Part shown: piece by piece, positions 30,381-52,638 of the stretch
How positions within the stretch are numbered: position 1 is the first letter of the stretch
Layout: each line of letters opens with the position of its first letter
Assembly (NCBI RefSeq): GCF_000420465.1
Contig: NZ_ATUZ01000018.1
Span: 62,001 to 126,000, forward strand
Length of the DNA: 64,000 bases
From: Desulfovibrio desulfuricans DSM 642
GTDB lineage: Bacteria; Desulfobacterota; Desulfovibrionia; Desulfovibrionales; Desulfovibrionaceae
Reading direction: 5' to 3'
Notes under the pieces: generated by a model
Seen by the model: the letters and a program-made list of their open reading frames with translations, nothing else
Database searches by the model: none
What the model was told of the DNA's origin: nothing
Position numbers and translations under genes: made by a program

Positions 30381-32098
30381 TCCGCATTCCCAGAAGCCAG
30401 TATGCCGAACTCTACGGCCCCACCACGGGCGACCGCATCCGCCTTGCGGACACGGAACTGTGGATCGAAATTGAGCGCGACCACACAGTCTATGGCGATG
30501 AAGTCTGTTTTGGCGGCGGCAAGGTCATTCGCGATGGCATGGGCCAGAGCCAGATCAGCAATGCTGACGGCGCTATGGACACCGTCATCACAAATGCCGT
30601 CATCATGGATGCGGCGCTGGGCATCATCAAGGCTGATCTTGGCATACGCGACGGGCGCATTGCCGCCATCGGCAAGGCTGGAAACCCCGATGTGCAGCCC
30701 GATGTGGACGTGATCATCGGCCCCGGCACGGAAATCATTGCAGGGGAAGGCTGCCTGCTCACCGCTGGCGGCATGGACTCGCACATCCATTTTATCTGCC
30801 CGCAACAGGTGGAAGAAGCCCTGGCCAGCGGCATCACCACCATGCTTGGCGGCGGCACCGGCCCCGCCACGGGCACCAACGCTACCACCTGCACCCCCGG
30901 CCCCTGGCATCTGGAACGCATGCTGGCCGCCACAGACGCACTGCCCATGAACTTTGGATTTCTGGGCAAGGGCAATGCCGCCATGCCCGATGCCCTGCGC
31001 GAGCAGCTCGAGGCGGGCGCCTGCGGCCTGAAACTGCACGAAGACTGGGGCACCACCCCCGCTGCCATCGACACCTGCCTTACCGTGGCTGACGAATACG
31101 ATGTACAGGTCGCCATCCATACCGACACGCTCAATGAGGCGGGCTTTGTGGAAGACACGCTGGCCGCGTTCCGTGGCCGCACCATCCACACCTACCACAC
31201 GGAAGGCGCAGGCGGCGGCCACGCACCCGACATTCTGCGCGCCTGCTCCCTGCCCAACGTGCTGCCCTCGTCCACCAATCCCACCCGACCCTATACCGTG
31301 AACACCGTGGACGAGCATCTGGACATGCTCATGGTTTGCCACCACCTCAACCCCTCCCTGCCAGAGGACGCGGCCTTTGCCGATTCGCGCATCCGGCGCG
31401 AAACCATTGCCGCGGAGGATATCTTGCAGGACATGGGCGTGATCTCCATGATTTCCTCAGACTCGCAGGCCATGGGCCGCGTGGGCGAGGTCATCACCCG
31501 CGCGTGGCAGACCGCCCACAAGATGAAGGTGCAGCGCGGCCCCCTGCCCGAAGACCGAGGGCACGGCAACGACAACTTTCGCGTGCGCCGGTATCTGGCC
31601 AAGTACACCTGCAATCCTGCCGTTACCCACGGCCTTTCCCACGCCATTGGCGCAGTGGCCCCCGGCCTTCTGGCCGACCTCGTGCTGTGGAAGCCCGCCT
31701 TCTTTGGGGTCAAACCTTCGCTGGTCATCAAGGGCGGGCAGATAGCCGCCGCGCCCATGGGCGATGCCAACGCCTCCATCCCCACGCCGCAACCCATGCA
31801 CTACCGGCCCATGTTTGGCGCGCTGGGGCAGGCTGCGGCTGCCGCCAGCCTGAGCTTTGTTTCGCGTGCCTTCATGGAAAACGGCGGCGAGGGACGGCTG
31901 CGGGAGCTGGGTCTGCTGCGCGGGCTTTCCTCCTGCCGGGGCACGCGCACACTGTGCAAGAGCGACCTTTTGCTCAACAGCGCCACCCCGGCCATTGCCG
32001 TGAATCCGCAAACCTATGAAGTCCGCGCTGACGGCGAAATACTCACCTGCGCTCCGGCAGAAGTGCTGCCGCTGGCGCAACGGTATTTTTTGTTCTAG
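30377..32098 (+). CDS. ureC: Urease alpha (catalytic) subunit UreC
   Basis: A 573-residue nickel amidohydrolase that splits urea to ammonia and carbamate. The metal-binding HIH is in [10 protein letters not shown] (~136-138), the carbamylated lysine in GLKLHEDWG (~219), and the flap cysteine/histidine in [20 protein letters not shown] (~322). All catalytic elements appear intact and the length is standard, so the enzyme should be active. It forms the (alpha-beta-gamma) unit with UreA and UreB. Confidence 0.97.
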
Positions 32099-47109: not shown

Positions 47110-49134
47110 ATGAAAGAGCTTGTTCTTGTTATTGGCCCGGCACTGCCGGATGCGGCACGCGCGCTGTGCACGGCCCCGGGCTACAGCCCCAGCGGCAAAG
47201 CCGAAACAGAGTCGGGTCAGGCCCTGCCCGAACGGCTTGTTGCCCACTGGGACGGGTGGGAAGCGCCCAATGGCGAAATTTCGCTGTCTGCGCGCCTGCG
47301 CGATGAACTGACGACCATCCGCGCCGAGCATATGGCCTGGGCACACGATTTGGGACGCATGCGCGTTGGCGGGCGCGAAGTGCAGCAGCATCTGCGTTGC
47401 GGCGAAAAGCTCTCCATGTGGTGGTGTTCGCTGCTGTACGAGCGCCATCCCAAAATGACGCCCGGCCTCTACACTGTTTACAAGCTGCGCACCCTTGAGC
47501 GCCTCATGGACGAGGGCGGATTTGCCTCCCTGCGCGTTTTTGGCGGGGATGAAGACCTGCGCGATGCGCTGGCCCGCATGTGCAAGTCAGGCCACAGGCT
47601 GTTTGCAGAAAACAGCGAAGCTCCGGTTCCGCTTGAGCCAGCCCGCAGTCTGCTGCGCAAGGTTTATGACGCAACGCCTCCCCCCTTGCGCGCGCTGGCC
47701 CGCTACGCCCACTGGTGGTGGACTGTACGCCGCCACATGCCGCCCGTTTCGGCCAAAAGCCCGTTGCCGCCAGCTCAGGGGCAGGCTGCCACCATCGCCA
47801 CCTACTTTCCCAATGTGGACATGAAGGCAGCGGAAAATGGCCGCTATCGTTCCCGCTATTGGGAGAGCCTGCACGATGCGCTGAACGCGACCGCCGGGGT
47901 GGAGGCGCAAGAACAGGGGAGCGCCGGGAAGCATGCCCAGACCGCCGGGCACTTTGTGCGCTGGCTTTTCATCCGCTTTCCCGCGCCCCAGCTCAGTCTG
48001 GCCCAGTGCATTGCCCTGCGCGACCGCTTTCGCCGAGAAGGCAGGGACGGCGCGAGTTTTCATTATCTTGAAGAATTTCTGACCACAGGCGACCTCATAG
48101 CCGCCCTGTTCCGCTACGCGCGCCTGTGCCTTGCCAGCCTGCGGCTGGAAAAAGAAGCCCGCGCGGCCTTTCGTTTTGCAGGCTCGCAGATTGATTTCTG
48201 GGCCTACCTCGGCCCCTACTGGGCGGAATCGTTCCGGGGCTGGCGTTGCCTTGAGCGCTGCCTGCAACACCGGGCATTCAAGCGATATGCCGCTACGGCC
48301 GGCCCGCAGCGCTGGACGCTCTTCCCGCTGGAGAACTGCCCGTGGGAACGCATGCTCACTCAGGCCATGCACGAGGCAGACAACGGCCCCGTCATCGGCG
48401 CGCAGCACTCCACCATCCGGCCCACAGACTTTCGCTATTTTGACGACCCGCGCACCTTTACGGGAGAACTGGCAGAATTTCAGCCCGATATGGTGCGGGG
48501 CAACGGGCAGTCCGCCTGCTCGCAGTGGCGCGAGGCAGGAGTGCCCGCCGAACGGCTGGGCGAAGTGGAAGCCCTGCGTTACCTCTATCTGGCCCACAAT
48601 GACGCGCAAAATGCCACTGCTGCGAGCCATAATTCCACGCCTGCTCCCCGGCGATTGCTGGCCGTAACCAGCTTTTTTGCGGACGAAACCGAGGCCCATC
48701 TGGCCCTGCTTGCCCGTTCGCTGCATGCAGGCCTGCTTGACGGCTGGGAAATCCGCGTAAAGCCGCACCCCTACCTGCCGGTTCAGGAAAGGCTGCACGC
48801 CCTGCTGGGCCGCCGTGCGCTGGACGTGCAGGTCGTGGACGGCCCCATTGCCGACCAGCTTGCCCCCGGCGTGGTGGTCTGGGCCTCCAATTCCACCACC
48901 GTGGCGCTTGAAGCCGCCATCAAGGGGCTGCCCGTGGTGGCCATGCTGCCCACAGACGACTTTGACCTCTGCCCCCTGCAAGATGTAGCCAGCCTGCCGC
49001 GCACCGGCAGCGTGGATGATGTGGCCTGCGCGCTGCGAACTGCAGCGCCTCTGCACCTTCCACCTGAATATCTTGACCTGAACGTCGATCTTCCCAGATG
49101 GGAAACACTGCTGCACCTGAGAGGAAAACCATGA
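47110..49134 (+). CDS. Large surface-carbohydrate biosynthesis-type protein
   Basis: A 674-residue soluble protein starting 9 nt after mtnA. The C-terminal ~170 residues resemble GT-B-fold glycosyl- or polysaccharide-transfer enzymes: IRVKPHPYLPV, then VVDGPIADQLAPGVVVWASNSTTVALEAAIKGLPVV, with the NSTTVALEAAIKGLP loop typical of nucleotide-sugar/CDP-polyol sites. The N-terminal part includes EKLSMWWCSLLYERHPKM, reminiscent of the TIGR04326 surface-carbohydrate family; I recognise this only tentatively. A helical, Arg-rich middle follows. Substrate unknown; no other polysaccharide genes are nearby. Its stop overlaps the next gene (ATGA). Confidence 0.65.
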   Translation: MKELVLVIGPALPDAARALCTAPGYSPSGKAETESGQALPERLVAHWDGWEAPNGEISLSARLRDELTTIRAEHMAWAHDLGRMRVGGREVQQHLRCGEKLSMWWCSLLYERHPKMTPGLYTVYKLRTLERLMDEGGFASLRVFGGDEDLRDALARMCKSGHRLFAENSEAPVPLEPARSLLRKVYDATPPPLRALARYAHWWWTVRRHMPPVSAKSPLPPAQGQAATIATYFPNVDMKAAENGRYRSRYWESLHDALNATAGVEAQEQGSAGKHAQTAGHFVRWLFIRFPAPQLSLAQCIALRDRFRREGRDGASFHYLEEFLTTGDLIAALFRYARLCLASLRLEKEARAAFRFAGSQIDFWAYLGPYWAESFRGWRCLERCLQHRAFKRYAATAGPQRWTLFPLENCPWERMLTQAMHEADNGPVIGAQHSTIRPTDFRYFDDPRTFTGELAEFQPDMVRGNGQSACSQWREAGVPAERLGEVEALRYLYLAHNDAQNATAASHNSTPAPRRLLAVTSFFADETEAHLALLARSLHAGLLDGWEIRVKPHPYLPVQERLHALLGRRALDVQVVDGPIADQLAPGVVVWASNSTTVALEAAIKGLPVVAMLPTDDFDLCPLQDVASLPRTGSVDDVACALRTAAPLHLPPEYLDLNVDLPRWETLLHLRGKP

Positions 49135-49604
49135 GTACGCATGACAGAGTGGCCGCCCTGGTGCGCCACTACTATTGGGACAGAGATCTCAACTGCGCCC
49201 GCACAACCCTGCGCTGCCTGGAAAACGTTCTCAAAGAACCGCTGCACCCGCAGATATACACTGCCACAGTGGGTTGCCACGGCGCTGGAGGCACTGGCGG
49301 GCAGTGCGGCCTTGTGGAGGGCGGCTTGCTGCTTATCGGCCTGCGCGGCGCAGAACTGGGCAAGGAAGAATCAGAAATTGTTGATCTGTGCGCGCAGTTT
49401 GCCGCCCTGTTCACTGAACGCTTCGGCAGCCTCTCCTGCAAGGCTTTGCGGCCCGGCGGCATCCACCCCAATGATCCACCGCATCTTTGCGAATCCGTTT
49501 CGGTAGACGCCATATGTTTTTTGCATGACTTTCTTGACGAAATGGCACAATCCGCCGAGCCAAACCGCAGAAAACCTGGATTTGAAGCCGATACGGCAGA
49601 GTAG
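49131..49604 (+). CDS. C_GCAxxG_C_C family protein
   Basis: A 157-residue protein with the spaced cysteine/glycine pattern of this family: CARTTLRCLENVL, then VGCHGAGGTGGQCGLVEGG, and later cysteines near CKALRP and C-FLHDFLDE. The family is thought to be redox-related, but the function is unproven. The ATG at 49131 overlaps the upstream stop by 4 nt, with GAGAGGAA before it. Third gene of the mtnA unit; its link to the other two is not clear. Confidence 0.8.
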   Translation: MSTHDRVAALVRHYYWDRDLNCARTTLRCLENVLKEPLHPQIYTATVGCHGAGGTGGQCGLVEGGLLLIGLRGAELGKEESEIVDLCAQFAALFTERFGSLSCKALRPGGIHPNDPPHLCESVSVDAICFLHDFLDEMAQSAEPNRRKPGFEADTAE

Positions 49605-49621
49605 AGTTCAAATCCCACCCT

Positions 49622-49650
49622 TTGACAACAATGCCCGGAGCGAATAGGTT
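49622..49650 (+). promoter_or_regulatory. Candidate promoter for the mgtA leader
   Basis: A perfect -35 TTGACA (49622-49627) is followed after 17 nt by TAGGTT, a weak -10. An alternative -10 is GAATAG closer by. It lies just after the upstream gene and before the structured leader. Confidence 0.4.
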
Positions 49651-49659
49651 CCGCGCAGA

Positions 49660-49706
49660 TGGCCTTTTGCGGCCATACGCTTTTTATGCGTCTGCCCTCT
49701 GGCAGA
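49660..49706 (+). other. Three tandem hairpins in the mgtA leader
   Basis: TGGCC/GGCCA (49660-49675), ACGC/GCGT (49677-49691) and TCTGCC/GGCAGA (49691-49706) form three adjacent stem-loops upstream of a short reading frame. They do not match the M-box magnesium riboswitch as I know it. They may be a sensor or processing region. Confidence 0.4.
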
Positions 49707-49741
49707 CGGTCACCCTCAAACCTATGGAAGGAGCATCCTAC

Positions 49742-49831
49742 ATGTCGTCCGACAGTTGCCACAGTTCCCCTTCGGAACCTGACAGTTTACGTCGCACCAC
49801 TCTTTCCACGCCATTCCGTTCCCGTAGCTGA
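49742..49831 (+). CDS. Candidate leader peptide upstream of mgtA
   Basis: A 29-codon reading frame, MSSDSCHSSPSEPDSLRRTT..., with an excellent ribosome site (GGAAGGAG, 8 nt before the ATG) and a stop 47 nt before mgtA. It contains Glu-Pro-Asp (residues 12-14) followed by Leu-Arg-Arg. The Salmonella MgtL leader, which senses low Mg through ribosome instability at acidic/Pro codons, also has Glu-Pro-Asp near its start and an Arg run. The similarity is short. The first half is Ser-rich and does not look like a folded protein. A sequence-based guess that it controls mgtA. Confidence 0.5.
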   Translation: MSSDSCHSSPSEPDSLRRTTLSTPFRSRS

Positions 49832-49878
49832 ATATCTTCCTGCGGGTAACGCGTTGCGCGTGCTCCCAGGAGGATTTT

Positions 49879-52638
49879 ATGGTTCTGCGCTCTTTTCTGC
49901 CGCACGGCCTTGTTGTGCCGCTTGCCCGTTTTTTTGGCCGCAAAGGCCACGCCGCCTCACATACCGTCAGTACGGAACTGGTTCGCCAGGCTGCAACCCG
50001 CCTGCTTGATGCCGCCCGCGTTGAAACGGACGAAGCCTTGCAGACGTTCAACTCCTCACCCGATGGTCTTACCCGCCATCAGGTGCATGAGATGCGCCAG
50101 CAGTACGGGGCCAATATCCTTGCCGCCAAGGACAGGGACAGCCTGCCCAAACGCCTGTTCACCTCGTTTATCAATCCCTTCAGCGTTGTGCTCCTTCTGC
50201 TGGCCTGCATTTCTTTCTTTACCGACTATCTGCTGGCAGCTGCCGGAGAAAAAGACCTCACCGCCGTTATTATCGTGACGGTCATGGTCTGCATAAGCGG
50301 CGTGCTGCATTTCGTGCAGGAGGCCCGCTCCGGCAATGCCGTGTCCCGCCTTGAATCGCTGGTCAAAACCACCATTGAAGTGGTGCGCGAGGGCGAGGGC
50401 AAGGAACTGCCCATCAATTCCTTGGTGGTGGGCGATGTGGTGCGCCTGGCCGCAGGCGACATGATCCCCGCCGACATACGCATCCTGCGGGCCAAGGATC
50501 TTTTTGTCAGCCAGTCTTCCCTCACGGGCGAAAGCGAACCTGTGGAAAAGTTCCCCCATGCCCAGCCCTCCGGCACTGCCGCCGCCTCGCCCCTTGATTG
50601 CGACAATCTGGCCTTCATGGGCAGCAACGTTGTCAGCGGCGCGGCCTACGGCCTTGTGCTGGCTGTTGGCGGGGCCACCCTTTTCGGCTCTCTGGCGCGC
50701 CAGATCGCGGCCACCACCACGCCCACCAGCTTTGACAAAGGCGTGAATTCCGTTTCCTGGCTGCTTTTGCAGTTCATGATCTGCATGGCCCCGGTGGTGC
50801 TTTTTATCAACGGTTTCACCAAGGGCGACTGGGTGGAAGCCGCATTGTTTGCCCTTTCCATTGCCGTGGGCCTTACACCCGAGATGCTGCCCACTGTTGT
50901 ATCGGCCAATCTTGTGCGCGGAGCCATGTTTATGGCCCGCAAAAAGGTTATTGCCCGCCGCCTCAACGCCATCCAGAATCTCGGGGCCATGGATGTGCTG
51001 TGTACCGACAAGACGGGCACCCTCACGCAAGACAGGATTGTGCTTGAGTATTCGCTCGATATTCACGGCACGGAAGACGCCCGAGTGCTGCGCCACGCCT
51101 TTTTGAACAGCTGGTTTCAGACCGGCCTCAAAAACCTGCTGGACGCCGCCATCGTCAACCACGCCGACGAACTGAGCATGCAGCCTCTGCGCAAGGAATA
51201 CAGCCTTGTGGACGAAATGCCCTTTGATTTCAGCCGCCGCCGTATGAGTGTTGTGGTGGCCGACACCACGGGCAAGACCCAGATCATCACCAAGGGCGCG
51301 CTGGAAGAAATGCTGACCGTATGCGCCTATGCCGAATACCACGGGCAGGTCGAACCGCTCACGCCCGAGCTCCAGGCCGAAATACTCGAGCGCGTGCGCC
51401 GTTACAATAACGACGGCATGCGTGTGGTGGGCGTGGCGCACAAAACCATGTCCGCGACGAGCGGAGTTTTTTCTGTGGCGGACGAAAAAGACATGGTGCT
51501 GCTGGGCTATCTGGCCTTTCTTGATCCGCCCAAGGATTCCGCATCAAAGGCGCTGGCCGCGCTCAACGAGCACGGCGTGCGCGTAAAGGTGCTGACAGGC
51601 GACAACGATGCCGTTACCCGCAGCGTATGCCGTCAGGTGGGGCTGCCGGGCAAAAATATTCTGCTGGGCGCAGAAATAGAGGCTATGGACGACGCGGCCC
51701 TGAAAGCCGCCGTTGAACAAGCCGACATTTTCGCCAAGCTCAGCCCGCGCCAAAAAGCCCGCATTGTGACCTGCCTGCGCGGCAACGGCCATGTGGTGGG
51801 CTTTATGGGCGACGGCATCAACGATGCCCCGGCCATGAAGAACGCCGATGTGGGTATTTCCGTCGATTCCGCTGTGGACGTGGCGCGGGAATCCGCGGGC
51901 GTCATCCTGCTGGAAAAAGACCTCACAGTGCTTGAAGCCGGTGTAATGGAAGGCCGCCGCACCTATGCAAATATAATAAAATATATAAAAATTACGGTTA
52001 GTTCAAACTTCGGCAACATGTTTTCCGTGCTGGCGGCCAGTGTATTTCTGCCGTTCCTGCCCATGACGCCCCTACAGATTCTGGTGCTCAACCTGCTCTA
52101 CGATGTCTCCTGCACGGCCATGCCCTGGGACAATGTGGATGAGGAGTTTCTGCGCAAGCCCCGCAACTGGAACACGGACAGCATCCGGCGGTTCATGTTC
52201 TGGCTCGGGCCTACCAGCTCGGTCTTTGACCTCACAACCTACGCCTTGCTGTTCTGGGTAATCTGCCCTGCAGTAGTGCCTCTGCCAGCAGGCGGCTGGC
52301 AGGCCATGAGCAGCACCGACCAGGCAAGCTTTACCGCCCTGTTTCAGGCGGGCTGGTTTGTGGAATCGCTGTGGACGCAGACAATGGTCATCCACATGTT
52401 GCGCACCCCGGGCATTCCCCTGCTGCACAGCCGCGCCGCATGGCAGGTGACCCTGCTCACGGGCCTTGGCGTTGCCGTGGGCACGGCCATTCCCTTTACC
52501 GCGCTGGGTCAGGGGCTGGATATGGGCGCGCTGCCCGCCAGCTACTTCCCCTGGCTGGCTGCGGTGCTCGCGGGCTATCTTGCCCTGGCCACGTTGGTAA
52601 AGGGGGCCTTTATGCGCCGCTACAACACATGGTTATAA
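49879..52638 (+). CDS. mgtA: Magnesium-transporting P-type ATPase (MgtA/P3B)
   Basis: A 919-residue inner-membrane ATPase that imports Mg2+. The phosphorylated aspartate is D377 in CTDKTGTLTQD, TGES (~216) is the actuator motif, and GDGINDAP (~644) closes the P domain. About ten hydrophobic segments are present, with the MgtA-type N-terminus (DGLTRHQVHEMRQQYGANIL). AGGAGG lies 6 nt before the ATG. It is preceded by a ~230-nt leader with hairpins and a short peptide frame. A hairpin follows the gene. Confidence 0.95.
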   Translation: MVLRSFLPHGLVVPLARFFGRKGHAASHTVSTELVRQAATRLLDAARVETDEALQTFNSSPDGLTRHQVHEMRQQYGANILAAKDRDSLPKRLFTSFINPFSVVLLLLACISFFTDYLLAAAGEKDLTAVIIVTVMVCISGVLHFVQEARSGNAVSRLESLVKTTIEVVREGEGKELPINSLVVGDVVRLAAGDMIPADIRILRAKDLFVSQSSLTGESEPVEKFPHAQPSGTAAASPLDCDNLAFMGSNVVSGAAYGLVLAVGGATLFGSLARQIAATTTPTSFDKGVNSVSWLLLQFMICMAPVVLFINGFTKGDWVEAALFALSIAVGLTPEMLPTVVSANLVRGAMFMARKKVIARRLNAIQNLGAMDVLCTDKTGTLTQDRIVLEYSLDIHGTEDARVLRHAFLNSWFQTGLKNLLDAAIVNHADELSMQPLRKEYSLVDEMPFDFSRRRMSVVVADTTGKTQIITKGALEEMLTVCAYAEYHGQVEPLTPELQAEILERVRRYNNDGMRVVGVAHKTMSATSGVFSVADEKDMVLLGYLAFLDPPKDSASKALAALNEHGVRVKVLTGDNDAVTRSVCRQVGLPGKNILLGAEIEAMDDAALKAAVEQADIFAKLSPRQKARIVTCLRGNGHVVGFMGDGINDAPAMKNADVGISVDSAVDVARESAGVILLEKDLTVLEAGVMEGRRTYANIIKYIKITVSSNFGNMFSVLAASVFLPFLPMTPLQILVLNLLYDVSCTAMPWDNVDEEFLRKPRNWNTDSIRRFMFWLGPTSSVFDLTTYALLFWVICPAVVPLPAGGWQAMSSTDQASFTALFQAGWFVESLWTQTMVIHMLRTPGIPLLHSRAAWQVTLLTGLGVAVGTAIPFTALGQGLDMGALPASYFPWLAAVLAGYLALATLVKGAFMRRYNTWL

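Follow-up and report, generated by a model that had tools for sequence, protein, structure and literature searches.

The approx. 220-base leader that separates the gene for a C-GCAxxG-C-C protein (49098-49604) from mgtA in the window, i.e., the whole 64,000-nucleotide stretch of Desulfovibrio desulfuricans DSM 642 DNA analyzed here, raises the question of whether expression of this Mg2+ importer gene is controlled by translation of a small frame within its own leader. The standard example of the ribosome as a Mg2+ sensor is control by MgtL, which has been described in enteric bacteria; a preliminary description of the locus had proposed a parallel system here, with a leader peptide and a structured leader RNA (Table 1). 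The identity of the downstream gene is clear, as its product matches TIGR01524 with 1149 bits. Overall, the explanation that we favor, with somewhat better than even confidence in it as a whole, is a translated leader gene (uORF) that acts on mgtA in cis, and cis-regulation of mgtA by leader translation is likely.

Table 1. Features of the mgtA leader region (window coordinates)
Feature	Position	Strand	Remarks
Candidate promoter	49622-49650	+	TTGACA (49622-49627), 17-nt spacer, TAGGTT
5' hairpin 1	49659-49676	+	ATGGCC/GGCCAT, followed by a T-run (terminator-like)
5' hairpin 3	49689-49708	+	CGTCTGCC/GGCAGACG
Leader ribosome site	49725-49733	+	TGGAAGGAG; predicted pairing with 49800-49808 within the frame
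Leader frame, 29 codons	49742-49831	+	MSSDSCHSSPSEPDSLRRTTLSTPFRSRS; ATG 49742-49744, stop TGA 49829-49831
Frame codons 20-22, candidate anti-leader-SD	49800-49808	+	CTCTTTCCA
Anti-SD strand	49834-49842	+	ATCTTCCTG; begins two bases past the leader stop codon
mgtA ribosome site	49867-49875	+	CAGGAGGAT; occluded by 49834-49842 in a predicted hairpin
mgtA, Mg2+-importing P-type ATPase, 919 aa	49879-52638	+	TIGR01524 and PRK15122 above cut-off

The small frame noted in the preliminary description between the promoter candidate and mgtA is present with a strong ribosome site (SD AAGGAG, 8 nt 5' of the ATG), and the Glu-Pro-Asp and Leu-Arg-Arg motifs reported for it occupy codons 12-14 and 16-18, respectively. 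An additional in-frame ATG lies six codons 5' of the leader ATG (49724-49742), where relatives carry TTG or GTG; it overlaps the leader ribosome site, and no separate ribosome site is evident for it. Among 288 genomes of the family that were searched, the window-type leader was present in four genomes of the same genus, and frame, ribosome site and stop position are common to these four species and to a fifth (G041, locus L018). Conservation at synonymous sites, which the preliminary description had singled out as informative, is pronounced: in comparison with G037, 87 of 88 bases are the same from the leader ribosome site to codon 22 (49725-49812), and the first 23 codons are identical, including 13 of 13 four-fold sites, against only 66% identical four-fold sites in mgtA (P = 0.0045). 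The leader of L018 (MgtA 74%), i.e., MSSDSPDFPAPEPGTHNPAGLPAPALSR, has 56% nucleotide identity to the window leader and 28 codons, and retains the ribosome site, the start, MSSDS, an acidic/proline-rich sequence and the stop position. No leader frame was found upstream of mgtA in two further genomes (G049 and G050, loci L019 and L020; MgtA 72-73% identical). Since L019 and L020 are closer to the window than L018 in the MgtA tree, i.e., nested within the leader-bearing group, loss is the simplest reading of this absence.

The remaining leader elements are conserved to different degrees. TTGACA and the GCGAATAGGTT region are conserved in the four genomes with the leader; a consensus sigma-70 scan found no site at 49622-49650, and the -10 element of the candidate promoter must thus be regarded as weak. 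Two of the three adjacent hairpins originally described are strong (hairpins 1 and 3 together, z = -3.82, with 0/200 shuffles as stable), while the middle one (ACGC/GCGT) overlaps hairpin 3 and is absent from the predicted fold. One pair in the stem of hairpin 3 varies consistently among relatives (T-A, T-G, C-G) and other pairs are broken, each in single genomes; in G037, hairpin 1 is replaced by a different sequence. The suggestion that a CCTGCGGG/CTCCCAGG pairing masks the mgtA ribosome site was borne out on a larger scale than described, as the predicted ATCTTCCTG/CAGGAGGAT hairpin covers the whole mgtA SD (z = -4.75; 0/200 shuffles). This hairpin is kept, with differing sequences, in all five leader-bearing genomes (L014-L018), and in L018 a different sequence forms it with equal strength.

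Pairing between the leader SD and codons 20-22 was predicted with a probability of about 0.94-0.99 in three genomes and 0.74 in the fourth. The fold of this domain is not exceptional when compared to shuffled sequences (z = -1.49), and covariation of a pairing internal to the frame cannot show among window-type leaders, which comprise four near-identical sequences. The possibility that a junction in the frame, with the leader ribosome site as its closing strand, serves as a Mg2+ sensor was rejected, given this z value and a pairing that is not kept in L018. When ribosome footprints were included in the folding, the mgtA SD of L015, L017 and L018 opened only with the ribosome at the last codon or the stop (unpaired 0.18-0.37, against 0.05 or less elsewhere); in L014 and L016 it was partly open (0.1-0.3) in other ribosome states too, and the footprint effect was modest.

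A search for related MgtA proteins in named genomes yielded 80 loci, mostly from Bacillota, with others from Lactococcus, spirochaetes, Coriobacteriia and metagenome bins (labels as deposited). Small frames with strong ribosome sites were often found about 60-400 bases 5' of mgtA. Upstream sequence was long enough for a comparison at 66 mgtA loci; 45 of these have such a strong-SD frame, as compared to 3 of 165 other genes in the same regions. Thus, a frame of this kind is not expected at chance level, and the parallel outside enteric bacteria envisaged in the preliminary description appears to extend much further than had been guessed. An acidic codon 2 was found in 38 mgtA frames and 0 control frames (Fisher P about 1e-26). 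An earlier ranking of candidates had favored acidic residues at position 2, but neither comparison made use of it. The class consensus is M-[DE]-x-G-S-S-x-[GS]-x-[DEK]-P-[DE]-G-R (short form M-[DE]-x-G-S-S-x-G-x-x-P-[DE]-G-R), with a frame length of about 27-50 codons; in 57 of 58 loci, frame 0 runs for 24 codons or more before a stop, as compared to 16 and 4 loci for the other two frames.

Many of these frames follow an M-box; a scan of 29 class loci revealed one in 19. In the genus of the window, the mgtA genes of G053 and G057 and the second mgtA copy of G039 are preceded by an M-box and then by a frame starting MEPDSRHGPRSDAPPRRR or MEPDSRYSPNSDFVPRRC, and at L023/L024 the peptide of the frame behind the M-box starts MEPD. 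G039 has two mgtA genes (C4:123218-125974 and C3:190897-193545; L015 and L050), one with a window-type leader and the other with an M-box and a MEPDS-type leader. Six leader-bearing loci (L105, L115, L125, L139, L153 and L154), each with several kilobases of upstream sequence, have no M-box, so that, as judged from sequence, the leader is a module separate from the M-box. NiCo riboswitches were detected at L119 (108-207) and L082 (1550-1645), at distances from class leaders that range from some hundreds of bases to approx. 2 kb. The leader examples tested match no family in Rfam, Pfam or NCBIfam, and an Rfam scan of the window leader at gathering and permissive thresholds gave no family, only a chance 7SK score; elsewhere in the window, Rfam RF02514 (5_ureB_sRNA) was found on the minus strand at 30526-30818 (87.2 bits, well over the cut-off). 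A description of this leader class was not found in the open-access papers searched, which does not prove novelty.

Other small frames precede mgtA genes as well. At L026 (G176), a 10-codon frame (MDPDDGLWPP) made up mostly of acidic and proline codons lies 125 bases before mgtA, with an AAGGAGG ribosome site. L027-L031, from the same genus and with a more distant mgtA, carry a different conserved leader family (MDHPPS...) located 164-174 bases before the gene, and an mgtA SD hairpin was predicted in most of them. At L033 and L036, MDAGDS[HT]PRPETDHP... precedes a much more distant mgtA and resembles the Clostridia-type MDAGSS leaders.

The pairing pattern across the class centers on an anti-SD strand before mgtA, typically GTACTTCC against GGAGGTAC, with which frame codons 4-14 also pair, together with the bases just 5' of the strand (e.g., GGAAGTAGC...GGCATAAAACC with GGTTATGCCTTACTTCC in L123). 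As the null obtained by shuffling the 3' region was weak for the helix between codons and anti-SD strand (median z = -1.4; the duplex search tolerates large internal loops), arm-swap and independent-anchor tests were used in its place; RNAalifold on spliced arms was unusable with anchors that shift between subtypes. When the anti-SD strand was placed once by way of the mgtA SD and once, independently, by way of the frame, the two placements coincided at 24 of 51 loci, as compared to 11.4 expected (P = 1.4e-5). Native codon and anti-SD arms paired at -20.1 kcal/mol, against -13.8 kcal/mol for swapped arms (0/20,000 permutations), and native SD and anti-SD arms likewise paired far better than swapped ones across the class. 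Footprint folding predicted for seven loci (L077, L084, L098, L105, L109, L119 and L123) an mgtA SD that is more open without a ribosome and that closes when a ribosome occupies codons 3-18; for many further class loci, little change was predicted. In the class, frame codons and the mgtA ribosome site would thus compete for one anti-SD strand. Given the acidic/proline start of these leaders and by analogy with MgtL (PMC11552253, PMC11282234), we infer that leader translation would repress mgtA in these loci and that loss of the ribosome would induce it.

We also assessed whether the window belongs to this class. Its peptide aligns without gaps to the M-box leader of G053 (L023), MEPDSRHGPRSDAPPRRRVT, with a score of 32; none of the 1572 control frames reached it (P = 3.5e-4 from shuffles). 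On the class profile it scores 9.1 bits, above all control frames, although the match is weak and 4 of 2000 shuffles did equally well. The window shares two class traits, i.e., a strong-SD frame shortly 5' of mgtA and an mgtA SD occluded by an anti-SD strand, and in the MgtA tree its clade is sister to the clade that contains the class members. Codon 2 is Ser in the window, whereas it is Asp or Glu in the class. The helix between codons and anti-SD strand is missing both in the window (L014; native -12.5 against swapped -12.2 kcal/mol) and in L018 (native -11.5 against swapped -12.8 kcal/mol), and no M-box (RF00380) was found in the window at the gathering threshold or at 49550-49950 at E up to 10. 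Overall, these data suggest that the window leader probably shares descent with the widespread class of mgtA leaders and is probably a diverged, rewired member, in which leader translation to the stop opens mgtA.

Under the explanation that we favor, the presence of a ribosome on the leader and the distance it travels would decide translation of mgtA. A ribosome at the leader stop would cover the anti-SD strand and release the mgtA site, so that reading the leader to its end would switch mgtA on; conversely, with the leader ribosome site paired inside the frame, the leader and hence mgtA would be off. The signal may be low Mg2+, acting through a looser RNA fold or through altered ribosome progress over acidic and proline codons. 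The function of the downstream gene, the M-boxes of related loci and the abundance of acidic and proline codons suggest Mg2+ as the signal, and both it and the sign of the response are to be read as conditional. Frame conservation, the mgtA SD hairpin, the footprint folding, the class-wide evidence and the likeness of the peptide to the G053 leader speak for this explanation; the leaderless L019 and L020, the missing helix between codons and anti-SD strand, the modest footprint effect and the weak profile match speak against it. Moreover, were early ribosome drop-off at low Mg2+ the sensor, stop-codon coupling would have the wrong sign for a Mg2+ importer. An arrangement like that of MgtL would have the opposite sign: low Mg2+ would cause ribosome drop-off at acidic/proline codons and turn mgtA on, the freed leader RNA pairing with the anti-SD strand or changing Rho access, and efficient leader translation would repress. 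The strong arm covariation across the class, the predicted closure of the mgtA SD by early ribosomes in seven class loci and the EPDP-driven ribosome loss reported for E. coli MgtL (PMC11282234, PMC11552253) all speak for such an arrangement, as does the share of Asp, Glu and Pro in codons 2-14 of leaders from the genus (0.54 in L018, 0.67 in L026, 0.46 in L023 and 0.38 in the window, against 0.13 in controls). In the window itself, however, the value of 0.38 is equalled by 3% of random small frames, the acidic/proline cluster comes late (codons 12-14), and the anti-SD strand has no alternative pairing partner in the folding and arm-swap analyses. For the MgtL mechanism originally suggested for the window, the folding model gives no alternative pairing that would free the mgtA site upon early ribosome loss, and we regard this mechanism as unlikely here, at roughly one chance in four.

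Two further explanations assign the frame no such role. Conservation relative to G037 acts at the nucleotide level, third positions included, and the frozen block begins and ends near the two strands of the predicted helix between the leader SD and codons 20-22, as would be expected if a Mg2+-responsive leader RNA were conserved and the ATG and ribosome site were by-products or folding elements. The fold of the block gains little stability over shuffles (z = -1.49), though, L018 has kept the coding features of the leader, acidic/proline-rich sequence included, at 56% nucleotide identity, and the class frame is open in 57 of 58 loci; control by RNA alone therefore appears improbable. The lack of a leader in the two close mgtA relatives (L019 and L020) would fit a chance frame in an ordinary structured leader without Mg2+ regulation and with at most basal translational coupling. 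Against this stand the background rate of such frames (3/165), the frozen leader frame in relatives and the fact that such frames turn up repeatedly upstream of mgtA in diverse bacteria, and we consider it very improbable.

Taken together with the class data, translation of the leader to its stop codon in the window lineage would be one outcome of a broader history, which we put forward tentatively and at slightly less than even probability: a leader class of Bacillota and further phyla, in many cases downstream of an M-box, in which the fate of the ribosome at an acidic/proline start chooses the partner of the anti-SD strand and Mg2+ is sensed twice (once through RNA, once through the ribosome), with a window lineage that lacks the M-box and the codon helix and was rewired to stop-codon coupling. 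If this is true, sensing of Mg2+ by the ribosome would be superimposed on the M-box, and lineages could lose or rewire it. Leader-peptide control of Mg2+ uptake may extend far beyond enteric bacteria and, with the frame found in Clostridia, Lactococcus, Desulfovibrio relatives and further groups together with covarying arms that compete for the mgtA ribosome site, ribosome-based Mg2+ sensing would seem general. Lineages with and without an M-box make the question of Mg2+ sensing by RNA or by ribosome directly testable.

In the enteric mgtA leader, leader translation controls mutually exclusive stem-loops, and Rho-dependent termination responds to Mg2+. The window leader resembles MgtL of E. 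coli and Salmonella in having, within the leader of a P-type Mg2+ importer gene, a small frame with its own ribosome site, acidic and proline codons, and structured RNA. The likeness proposed in the preliminary description thus stands for the conserved frame and the SD-masking structured leader, and falls short in the late motif and the peptide itself: the EPDP that is reported to drive ribosome loss in E. coli (PMC11282234, PMC11552253) is at codons 2-5 of MgtL, whereas the window has D4 and P10-S-E-P-D14, and direct homology of the window peptide to E. coli MgtL was rejected, as none could be detected. On the class profile, E. coli MgtL reaches 3.4 bits, a score that 83 of the 2233 scored controls equalled or exceeded. 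Unlike in MgtL, the SD-occluding hairpin of the window abuts the leader stop codon; mutually exclusive stem-loops were not found in the window, and in the class they take the form of alternative codon/anti-SD and anti-SD/SD pairings. M-box (RF00380) mgtA leaders share the downstream gene, and the M-box lies 5' of many class frames, but not of that in the window. In Mycobacterium tuberculosis, an M-box and a conserved uORF precede pe20, with a peptide called mycobacteria-specific by the authors (PMC12810186); that system likewise has a uORF between a Mg2+-linked leader and an operon, and SD/anti-SD/anti-anti-SD pairings, but there the uORF is itself the target of the M-box, and the gene is one other than mgtA. 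The corL frame, which belongs to corA in Salmonella and E. coli (PMC11552253), is also a uORF in the branched leader RNA of a Mg2+ transporter, but it serves a different transporter and involves Rho termination.
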